Origin: a virus
Virus record (IMG/VR): IMGVR_UViG_3300032242_000213
Span: 1 to 26,967 of that record
Strand: one strand, 5' to 3'
DNA length: 26,967 bases
Of the stretch, positions 20,644 to 24,443 are shown one piece after another (positions within the stretch are counted from its first letter, which is position 1; every line of letters begins with the position of its first letter). The position numbers were made by a program, and so were the translations under genes. The notes below the pieces were generated by a model. That model was not told where the DNA came from, did not search any database, and saw only the letters and a list, made by a program, of their open reading frames with translations.

Positions 20644-20870
20644 ACGTTGTAGTACGGAATCTTGTACGCATTCCCGTTTACGGTCACATTGATAAACCCA
20701 ACAGGGTTAGCTGGCAATGTGGCCGAGCCTGCAGTGGCCGTGGTAGCTGATGAATAATTAAGCAGATTAAGAAAAAACTGCTGCCACGAACGGGTTGGCC
20801 GGTTGGTGGTCTTATCCAAGAACTCAGCCTGTGGATAAGGGTTGATTTGTTGGGTGTTTGAGAGTGCCAT
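20640..20870 (-). CDS. Small putative neck/tail protein
   Basis: The protein of 76 residues contains an N-terminal RPTRSWQQFFLNLLNY helix and a C-terminal strand pair GFINVTVNGNAYKIPYYNV. This ending is found in short podovirus proteins encoded next to the gp10-like gene. Its start overlaps the stop of the gp10-like gene (TAATG), so the two are likely co-translated. Possibly a tail-associated adaptor, but not shown. Confidence 0.7.
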   Translation of the reverse strand: MALSNTQQINPYPQAEFLDKTTNRPTRSWQQFFLNLLNYSSATTATAGSATLPANPVGFINVTVNGNAYKIPYYNV

Positions 20871-22852
20871 TAGTTTTCTCCTGCGCTCATTTTTAGGTTG
20901 GCAGAGATGATGACCGCATTCACAGGGTCGGTGATAGACACTTCAAAAACTCTGTCCCGCGCTTGGCCTAAACGCCGCCAAATAGCACGGTTGCGGTACT
21001 TGCCTAGTTGTCCAATCGTGACCCAATATTCTTTAGACCAGGTGGAGCCGCCATCATTAGACCAGCGCAGCATGGCTTGTGGATAAGTCGTGGTCGTTGT
21101 GTTGTTAACGGATGCTTGAAGCCCAAGAATGTAAGTTTCAAGCGCACCAATGGTAAAAGTTGCATCAGGGTAAATGTAATACGGCGAATTAACGTAAATT
21201 GCGCCCGTCGGTGTGGATAGCCCTGTTGTGCCAACGCCAGGCTGGAATTGAATCTGCAATTCCTCAAAATACTGACGCTGCAAGTCTGTGGTCAGGTGAG
21301 GGGCGCGACGTAGCCGACGGACGTTTTGGCCGTTATCGGTGTAGTTCTTTTTGTCTAGTTCGTATATACAGCCATTGGCATAATCACCCACCAACACCAT
21401 GCCTTGGAAGACCGCACAGCAGTTTCCGCGATGGCGGCTGTATGAACCATCCGTATTTGTGTAAAGCCACTTGTGCCACATTTGCGTGGTGAAGTCATAA
21501 GCCCAAGTTATCCCAATAGTTGGGAATGTGCAGACATAGACTTCGTGGCCTTCAAGCTGATACGTCCAAGCAATTGCGTCATCAATGTATTGATTGGTTA
21601 GCGAATTCTCTACAGCGTGTGTAGAAATGCGTTGCGGGATGTAGCCGTTCATCTGCATCACTTGCGCCTGGCCGCGATTGTTGCGCGACACATAAGCGAA
21701 CGATGGGCCAAGGCGGGCAACAGAAAACTGCGCCGCAATGCCTTGTTGGGTAGATGTGCCTGGAATGCGTTGAAATGGAAACTGAACCGCGCCCACATCT
21801 GTCCACACTTCGGACGATGCTTCGCCCATCAAATAGACTTCACGATGGTCAACAATAAGCGCCACCAGCTTGTCGGGCGCACCGTCTTTTAGCGAATAGG
21901 ATGTGTTGGAAGAAATGGGCGACAACAGATTTGATGCGCCCCAAAGCTGAGTGCCAGGGTCGTTGTAAACAAAATAGTTGTCCACAATGTCAACAGAATT
22001 CGCACCGCTAAACGCGCCATCGGTAGAAGGCAAAACGCTGAAGTTCAGCGCATACATGGTTTCCGATGCAACGGTTTGACTAACGCTAATGGTGTAAGTT
22101 CCCGCGCCACCCAAGCCAGTGCCAAATGCGGTAATGATTGTTCCTGCCGTAATGCCAACGCCTTGAATTGTCTGCCCAAGGTAAATCGTGCCCGATGCGA
22201 CTGCGGTAACAGTTAGCACAGTCGTGCTAATGCTGGCCGTGAATTGAGCGCCGACCGCGGTGCTGCTTAAAGACCGCGCTGAGACTGTTTGCGATGTGTT
22301 TAGGGTGTAAGTACCAACCCCGCCAGTTCCCGTCCCCAAAGCCGTAATAACGGTCTCTGCGGTCACGCCCACGCCGGTCAGACTTTGGTTAGCCGTAATC
22401 GTTCCCGAACTCATGGCCGTAACAGTCAAAGTCGTGCCCGAAACAGAGCCGGTGAAAATGGCGTTAGACGGTGTGGAAATGCGCCAGGTGTACCGGTAAG
22501 CCCCATCCACAATGTAGGCGTTGATGCCGTTGTCGGTAATGCCAACGCGCCCTGTAGATGAATTAAGCGTGCCGACAATGGTTGGGGTTAGATTAGACGT
22601 AAAGACGTAAACGTAAACGCCACAGACCGCAATCATTTGCGACCCGCCCGACAACGTGCGAAGACCGCGCACTTCAGCGGTATTCAATACGGTTTGTAGG
22701 GTTAACCCTGGGGTTGGATAAAGCGCAACAATGCCCCGCGTGCCAGGCTGCTTGAGTGGGTCAATCTCGGGAAAGAAATTGATGCACTCCTGCGATTCCT
22801 GATAAATCGACGGTGCTTCGTAGGATGGGCCAACAAAACCAAAATCGGGCAT
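20870..22852 (-). CDS. P22 gp10-like neck protein (packaged DNA stabilisation) with inserted modules
   Basis: This 660-residue protein resembles P22 gp10, the hub below gp4. The N-terminus has [20 protein letters not shown] and NFFPEIDP, then [10 protein letters not shown], typical of the family. The rest contains repeating beta strands consistent with a propeller. Compared with gp10 (about 470 residues), it is longer because two about-62-residue Ser/Thr/Gly-rich modules (131-192 and 203-265) lie in one loop, between YRYTWRI and [20 protein letters not shown]. The C-terminal part carries YEVSITDP-like strands ([20 protein letters not shown]). It seals the portal and supports tail fibres. Confidence 0.9.
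22049..22462 (-). repeat. Two tandem beta-type modules inside the gp10-like protein
   Basis: Residues 131-192 and 203-265 repeat one plan: F-T-(G/A)-S-(V/I)-S-x-T-x-L-T-V-T-A, then S-G-T-I, GVGxTAxTxIT, a GTGxGGxGTYT run, and (T/V)SQTVxS. DNA identity is only moderate, so the duplication is old. A third copy is in the gp4-like protein. Confidence 0.85.
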
Positions 22853-22860
22853 TTATGACC

Positions 22861-23832
22861 TCAACGGAAGAAGCCGCCCGAAAGTATCCAGCCCGCGTCC
22901 TTACTGCGACCAACCAACAGCGCATCGGCATATCGAGCAACAGGTGGCGGCTTCATGTTTGTGCGCTTAATTGTGGCTTTGCCTTGTGCGGCAAACTTCA
23001 TAATCATTGCAATTTGGGTCTGACTTGCTTTGCCGTACATGGGCATTAAACGCTCTGCAAGACACCAGCGCAGCGCCATTGCGTAGCCTTGCGGGAGCGT
23101 AATGCTGTCGTACAAGCCGGTGTAGTTGCTGAAAATCGTGTCGGCAAAAATGTGCATTTCGCCTTGGCCTGGATTGGGCCACAGGAAAAGGTTGCCTAGC
23201 AATTCAGTCGGTTGGTAGTAAAGCGCCTTGGGCCACGGGCCGTTAAGCGTCTTCAAACCAATCATTTCGTATTCTTCAACATTCAAAACTGAAACTGGAT
23301 AGTCAAGACCGCCGCCGGTTATTGGTTGTCCATTGGAGGTCGTGTTAATCCGAACAAACGCCGAATTGATGACCAATGGCCGCTGATAGTAAGCGTTGAT
23401 TGTGGTTGACGCTACAGTCTGCGAAATGTTGAGCGTGTACGTTCCAGCTTCGTTGACGTTGCCACCAGCGCCGGTTTGGAATGCCAAAATCTTAGTTCCA
23501 GCCGTGATTCCTGTGCCACTTAGGGTTTGCCCTATGGCTATTGCGCCTGATGTAATGGCCGTAACCGTAAGGATTGTCCCTGATATAGAGCCGGTAAAGA
23601 CTGCGCCGACTTGACCGCCTGGGCCGATGGTGTATTGCGTTTGGCCTGACGTAACGGGGAAGATGATTTCCGTCTTGTAGAACGTCATCATGTCCTCATT
23701 TGACCATTGGTCAATAAGGTCATTGAGCATTTCAAACGCATCCTGCGCCGCGTCAGGCGTAGGAGTTTCACCGGCTTCTAGTGCGCCAATGTCTTTGAGT
23801 GCGCGAGAAATGATGTCAATAGGCGCTGTCAT
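22861..23832 (-). CDS. P22 gp4-like head completion protein with inserted module
   Basis: The protein of 323 residues starts [20 protein letters not shown] and [20 protein letters not shown], the N-terminal signature of gp4-like connector proteins, which dock below the portal. It is much longer than P22 gp4 (166). Extra length is partly a beta-type module (77-147) inserted between QYTIGPGGQ and [15 protein letters not shown]. The C-terminal part (about 200-300) has helical segments typical of the family. The chosen ATG at 23832 overlaps the previous stop (ATGA); an in-frame start 11 codons earlier lacks support. Confidence 0.88.
23392..23604 (-). repeat. Beta-type module inserted in the gp4-like protein
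   Basis: Residues 77-147 reproduce the module of the gp10-like protein: [18 protein letters not shown], then [29 protein letters not shown]. Flanking gp4 sequence resumes on both sides, so this is an insertion and not divergence of the host fold. The module would face outward from the neck. Confidence 0.85.
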
Positions 23833-24143
23833 GTCTGCTCCAGGGTAAACACTTGCGGTTTCCACGGAGGCACAACAGAATTCGACTTACGCGCCAGTTG
23901 TTCCTCTAGCCCTGATTTTATAACATTTATCCCGTCTTTGTAAGACTCAGCTTCAATCCAACCGGCCACCATGTCCTCGGTCACATCGGCAAACGGCGTT
24001 TTTAGGGTTGGCTCATTGAAGTACCAATTGCCCTCAGTTTCCACCGAGTCGTTGTCTACTTGGGCTGTCACATGGTATTTCGCATGAGTAATCAACCCGT
24101 CTGTAGCGGAAATCTCAGGAATTTTCCATGTGAAATTTGCCAT
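23829..24143 (-). CDS. Small virion-associated hypothetical protein, paralogue 1
   Basis: The protein of 104 residues starts [20 protein letters not shown] and has a beta-rich first half ([12 protein letters not shown]) and a helical end with [14 protein letters not shown] and [10 protein letters not shown]. It shares with the next gene the pattern W-x-I, (D/N)G(L/F)IT-x-A, PxADVTExxVxxW, and a final helix then VPPW. Lying upstream of gp4-like and coupled to it, it may be a neck or tail accessory. Function unknown. Confidence 0.75.
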
Positions 24144-24443
24144 TTATGCGCTCCAAGGTACGCCAGCGGCGGTTATAGGGTTTTTCAATGCGGCAATTTG
24201 TGCAGCAAGGTTAGCTTCAATAACATTTTTATCCACGCCGTTAGCCCAGCACCAATCTAGCACTTCTTGTTCGGTCACGCTTGCGTAAGGGATGGATGGC
24301 GTAGCAGTCGCAAAGCCGCAAGTGCCGTAAGAGCCAGCGGTGTAATCACCGTCAACGGCGGTTGCTGCCCAATGCGCTGTGGTGATAAATCCGTTTGCTA
24401 CCAAATAGTCAGTTTGTGTGATTGCCCAAGTTGCAGTAGTCAT
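24144..24443 (-). CDS. Small virion-associated hypothetical protein, paralogue 2
   Basis: This 99-residue protein starts MTTATWAITQTDYLVANGFI and shows the same layout as paralogue 1: TTAHWAATAVDGDYT, then IPYASVTEQEVLDWCWANGV and a helix ending GVPWS. Its stop directly abuts the start of paralogue 1. The two most likely arose by tandem duplication. Position next to tail fibres and neck genes suggests a structural role. Confidence 0.75.
   Translation of the reverse strand: MTTATWAITQTDYLVANGFITTAHWAATAVDGDYTAGSYGTCGFATATPSIPYASVTEQEVLDWCWANGVDKNVIEANLAAQIAALKNPITAAGVPWSA

Follow-up and report, generated by a model that had tools for sequence, protein, structure and literature searches.

A mobile module with a predicted beta-barrel fold inserted in the neck adaptor and hub proteins of a P22-like podovirus lineage

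The window, that is, the whole stretch of DNA that was analysed, is a virus record of 26,967 bases (G000) whose portal gene matches the P22-like portal. It encodes a gp4-like neck adaptor and a gp10-like hub protein, both of which carry a module of 65–70 aa (Table 1). When the gp4 copy was searched against the whole window, exactly three places were found, all of them on the minus strand: the single copy in gp4 and two copies arranged in tandem in gp10. The pairwise amino acid identity among the three copies is about 57–67%, and their alignment against each other gives scores of 174–202 compared to 54–63 for the best of 500 shuffles. Both results agree with the first-pass annotation, which had placed two copies in the gp10-like protein and one in the gp4-like protein with coordinates that proved correct. 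At the DNA level the copies match in short stretches only, and since this identity is so patchy they are old rather than recent duplicates. Neither Pfam nor NCBIfam holds a model for the module, and no earlier description of it was found in the open-access literature. Upstream of gp4 two small ORFs, each about 100 aa long, lie side by side (23829–24143 and 24144–24443); they are alike in layout and may be paralogues.

Table 1. Host genes and module copies in the window.
Feature	Positions	Strand	Remarks
gp4-like neck adaptor gene	22861–23865	minus	phrog_12985, SU10_adaptor PF24175
gp4 module copy	23389–23604	minus	aa ~88–159 of the gp4-like ORF; the search query itself
gp10-like hub / head closure Hc3 gene	20870–22852	minus	phrog_578, E 3e-96
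gp10 first module copy	22265–22462	minus	aa ~131–195; 59% identity to the gp4 copy, E 7e-15
gp10 second module copy	22049–22249	minus	aa ~202–266; 67% identity to the gp4 copy, E 5e-18

Both host proteins can be assigned to known neck families. The gp4-like protein scores above the Pfam cut-off for SU10_adaptor, the helix core predicted for it can be superposed on P22 gp4 (Z 14.8) and T7 gp11 (Z 10.6), and its relatives that lack the module match P22 gp4 by profile (E 5e-8). With the family match and the helix-bundle core both found, it belongs to the P22 gp4 / podovirus adaptor family. The full gp4 model is poor (mean pLDDT 61) and its insertion geometry was therefore left unused. Homologues of gp4 begin at the methionine that occupies position 12 of the listed ORF, which makes the ATG at 23832 the probable start. 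The gp10-like protein is a P22 gp10 / head closure Hc3 protein, matched in sequence over the whole core; by profile, its family reaches the Pam1 needle head (E 6.5e-37) and P22 gp10 (E 7e-18).

In gp4 the module is inserted between YTIGPGG and RPL, and in gp10 YTWRIST and NFSVLPS flank the tandem, which, as read from the sequence, comes after two blade-like units. At both places the homologue alignment shows the neck sequence resuming on either side, as had been proposed at first. The gp4 site is empty in the homologues of six reference phages, all of 232–238 aa (Rhodoferax phage P26218, Pseudomonas phage PAE2, Vibrio phage VvAW1, EBPR podovirus 1, ctfPj964 and ctTUS972). Likewise, gp10 relatives of 511–532 aa with 57–61% core identity lack both copies and have an empty site. 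Since both loops are empty in homologues that lack the module, it is an insertion and not part of the core fold. In the Xanthomonas phage PBR31 homologue (L161:3551-4504) the same gp4 loop is occupied by another insert, about 68 aa long and marked by a GDISGAGIPAGATV motif, which is possibly a distant relative of the module. The gp10 homologue of EBPR podovirus 1 (L162:5882-7456) carries at other loops another kind of repeated insert, of the GY..GA.VTIAGATPSDYNG type. In four loci (L076, L080, L072 and L035) gp10 is empty and the next gene, which is tail-fibre-like, has one module.

The number of copies varies from 0 to 4 in gp10 and from 0 to 2 in gp4, which shows that the host proteins can fold without the barrels. 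The combinations of gp4 and gp10 modules per locus were (0,0), (1,0), (1,1), (1,2), (1,3), (1,4), (2,0) and (2,3), counted with overlapping loci of one contig included; among these loci, gp10 modules never occurred without a gp4 module. The viral scans were anchored on module-bearing proteins, which biases the frequencies of these counts and leaves the empty sites beyond doubt. Trees built from the cores after removal of the modules require a single change of presence in each of gp10 and gp4, with several changes of copy number afterwards, and no loss of the whole insert was seen within the module-bearing clades of this anchored sample. Each insertion was gained once and then inherited vertically, gp4 being the first to receive it and gp10 the second. 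Modules from one position share a median identity of 0.65–0.70 compared to 0.46–0.51 between positions. The module tree (65 columns, few forks resolved) also groups the copies by position.

The model of the tandem is all beta with a pLDDT of 93.2. The best solved match to the module model is chain 1 of PDB 8eci from Arthrobacter phage Bridgette (Z 7.6, 69 residues, 2.4 Å, about 23–28% identity), followed by the domain-2 barrels of many translation factors, such as EF-Tu, eEF1A and IF2 (Z 6–7.2, 67–70 residues, 2.1–2.7 Å); all structural matches of the module thus lie under Z 8, values that are no proof of fold kinship. These models predict a beta-barrel resembling domain 2 of EF-Tu, a barrel of the cradle-loop, RIFT-related kind. 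An immunoglobulin (Ig) fold is unlikely from the same models, as antibody chains reached a Foldseek probability of only up to 0.06 and barrels ranked first. A beta-tulip was rejected because no helix in the module model reaches 4 residues. In sequence, a search of the PDB with the module gave chance matches only, with no sequence-profile match to the Bridgette chain, and among the Pfam matches up to E 1 for 44 tandem modules there was no Ig-like, carbohydrate-binding or translation-factor family. A weak Pfam match to FeoA (0.005) in 7 of these 44 was judged to be chance. A consensus of the module likewise drew no match among phages and plasmids, an outcome that is probably due to the low-complexity filter.

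The module is found well beyond the podovirus neck. It is borne by tail sheath proteins and their phrog_1876 neighbours (L210, L225 and, in Paraburkholderia elongata, L252), by baseplate wedge proteins (L250, L255 and L283), by a major head protein (L275), by the tail protein phrog_376 (L260 and also L194), by a phrog_3287 virion protein (L201) and by Sinorhizobium phage tail fibres, as in phiLM21; it was also found, in ctpbd312, in a gene adjoining a capsid gene. Among predicted viral structures it appears in a capsid protein (60% identical) and in Indivirus collagen-repeat proteins. On some bacterial contigs it is encoded within very long proteins, as in Synechococcus lacustris, where FG-GAP repeats accompany it. 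The module is genuinely mobile, as the first-pass annotation had supposed, and resides in many kinds of virion protein. In L252 (1-702 and 4797-7332) the sheath (phrog_205) and phrog_1876 genes are adjoining genes of myophage type, both with modules, and a 234-aa ORF consists of three modules; the same module-bearing pair occurs in L210 and L225 and is a counterpart of gp4 and gp10.

That phage structural proteins shuffle accessory domains is already established, mainly for Ig-like folds. Ig-like domains are described as promiscuous accessory parts of such proteins (Fraser et al., 2006, as cited in PMC10684548; surveyed in PMC7602432) and are hosted by capsid, tail, sheath, baseplate and decoration proteins. 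The module resembles them in being a small beta domain inserted in or appended to virion proteins, horizontally spread and outside the host core. Unlike them, it matches no Ig-like family model, its predicted fold is nearer to barrels than to beta-sandwiches, and it also occupies adaptor and hub proteins of the podovirus neck. RIFT-related domains are likewise known from tail and neck proteins, and exchange has been described in neck passage proteins (PMC10684548). A possible parallel in position is the nozzle protein of phage SU10, which has four domains inserted between propeller blades 2 and 3; these make the tail more stable and then straighten, so that it becomes longer, and blades 1–3 lie away from the tail axis (PMC9509320). 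In both cases tandem beta domains sit in the hub of a short tail, apparently at a matching place in the propeller if the blade position proposed here holds; on the other hand, the SU10 domains are four in number, are described as Ig-like, belong to a different nozzle family and showed no sequence similarity to the module. Dimeric capsid cement proteins have been reported for Bridgette (PMC13033339), and chain 1 of 8eci is probably one of these; it differs from the module in being a separate chain of 124 residues and no insert. Moreover, the coat proteins of P22-like phages contain an inserted I-domain, a six-stranded beta-barrel that folds autonomously (PMC11243222). It is comparable to the module as a barrel placed within a virion protein of a P22-like phage, the difference being that it sits in the coat protein; no similarity between the two was noted.

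Our preferred reading, to which we give a probability of about 55%, is that the module is a plug-in barrel acquired in single old insertions and kept by selection, which serves as an outward accessory bracing or extending the hub and the adaptor. In a freshwater lineage of P22-like podoviruses, a barrel was inserted once in the gp4 loop, in the beta region between the bundle helices, and a tandem pair was gained later in one gp10 loop, in the N-terminal part of a presumed beta-propeller. Purifying selection then retained both inserts as they descended vertically. Probably the barrels project from the adaptor ring and the hub; with the copy numbers of P22 there would be 12 of them on gp4 and 2 x 6 on gp10. 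Their exposure and the blade assignment are suggested by sequence comparison. There they may brace adjacent subunits, serve as docks for fibres or spikes, or make the tail tip longer, and they would not be fast-evolving receptor-binding parts. The outward position and the bracing or extending role are proposed by analogy: in SU10 the adaptor holds fibres by radially protruding fibre-dock loops (PMC9509320). T7-type adaptors appear to carry the fibre dock in the beta region between the bundle helices.

The selection acting on the modules bears on this reading and on its rivals. The modules have dN/dS values of 0.073 (gp4), 0.091 and 0.104 (both gp10), compared to 0.051 and 0.072 for the cores; module dN is 1.2–1.5 times that of the cores and module dS equals core dS. 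The modules are thus under strong purifying selection, with dN/dS of 0.07–0.10. Since module dS equals core dS and the copies form position-specific groups, the modules were inherited with their genes. The initial proposal that the protein pair is subject to domain shuffling does not hold against these groups, the single gain in each host tree and the shared dS, which argues against any ongoing exchange between gp4 and gp10 of the same genome. Such exchange would account for a module in both neighbouring genes, and the second gp4 modules of three loci (L227, L234 and L236) were indeed not copied from the first; that of L227 is nearest to the modules of other host proteins (0.71–0.75), and those of L234 and L236 have each other as closest match (0.77) and differ from their first modules. 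However, no within-genome gp4–gp10 pair exceeds 0.68 identity, and the gp10 modules of the window are closer to modules of unrelated proteins (0.68 and 0.71) than to any gp4 module (0.58 and 0.64). A recent duplication between the two genes was also rejected. Exchange between the pair is therefore largely refuted and we regard it as highly improbable, while occasional capture from a wider pool of modules is real.

The main rival to bracing or extension is adhesion, in which the barrels would bind host surface glycans or envelope parts weakly and so raise the chance of adsorption, as proposed for phage Ig-like domains. This is possible although the less probable of the two. The module is common in tail-fibre proteins and present in long bacterial proteins, similar domains added to sheath proteins have been proposed to help with adhesion or stability (PMC9230969), and some neck passage proteins bear carbohydrate-binding domains (PMC10684548); yet the modules are nearly as conserved as the cores (dN/dS about 0.1) rather than hypervariable, and the Pfam search of the tandem modules matched no carbohydrate-binding family. 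Given the purifying selection and a structural neighbour from a capsid entry, bracing or extension fits at least as well as the glycan or cell-surface binding first suggested. A self-folding barrel might also be a neutral or selfish passenger, tolerated in loops and spreading with little benefit to the phage. Its very broad and patchy distribution and variable copy number would suit such a passenger, whereas the strong purifying selection and the retention of the whole insert throughout the sampled module-bearing clades (a sampling anchored on module-bearing proteins) make it improbable. Bracing or extension by an inherited barrel remains the reading that we favour, and the existence of clean empty-site relatives makes the function of the module testable.

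What is new here is a distinct and apparently uncatalogued barrel family, its reach across most parts of the virion and an ordered insertion history in a lake phage lineage. The family reaches conserved neck proteins that are usually held to be constrained. More speculatively, and with rather low odds in our estimate, this undescribed non-Ig beta-barrel might be the second accessory domain to have become widespread among tailed phages, its presence in capsid, adaptor, hub, sheath, baseplate and fibre proteins being the result of independent events, and the adaptor and hub barrels might here touch to form a new outer neck collar. A curated model of the module would put a name to a portion of many phage and bacterial proteins that now have no annotation, and would also prevent false transfer of annotation through the shared module. 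Regarding the host, a contig binned with a methanotroph (L251, Methylococcales MAG AMbin126) carries gp4 and gp10 with modules, which gives a weak hint of the host group.
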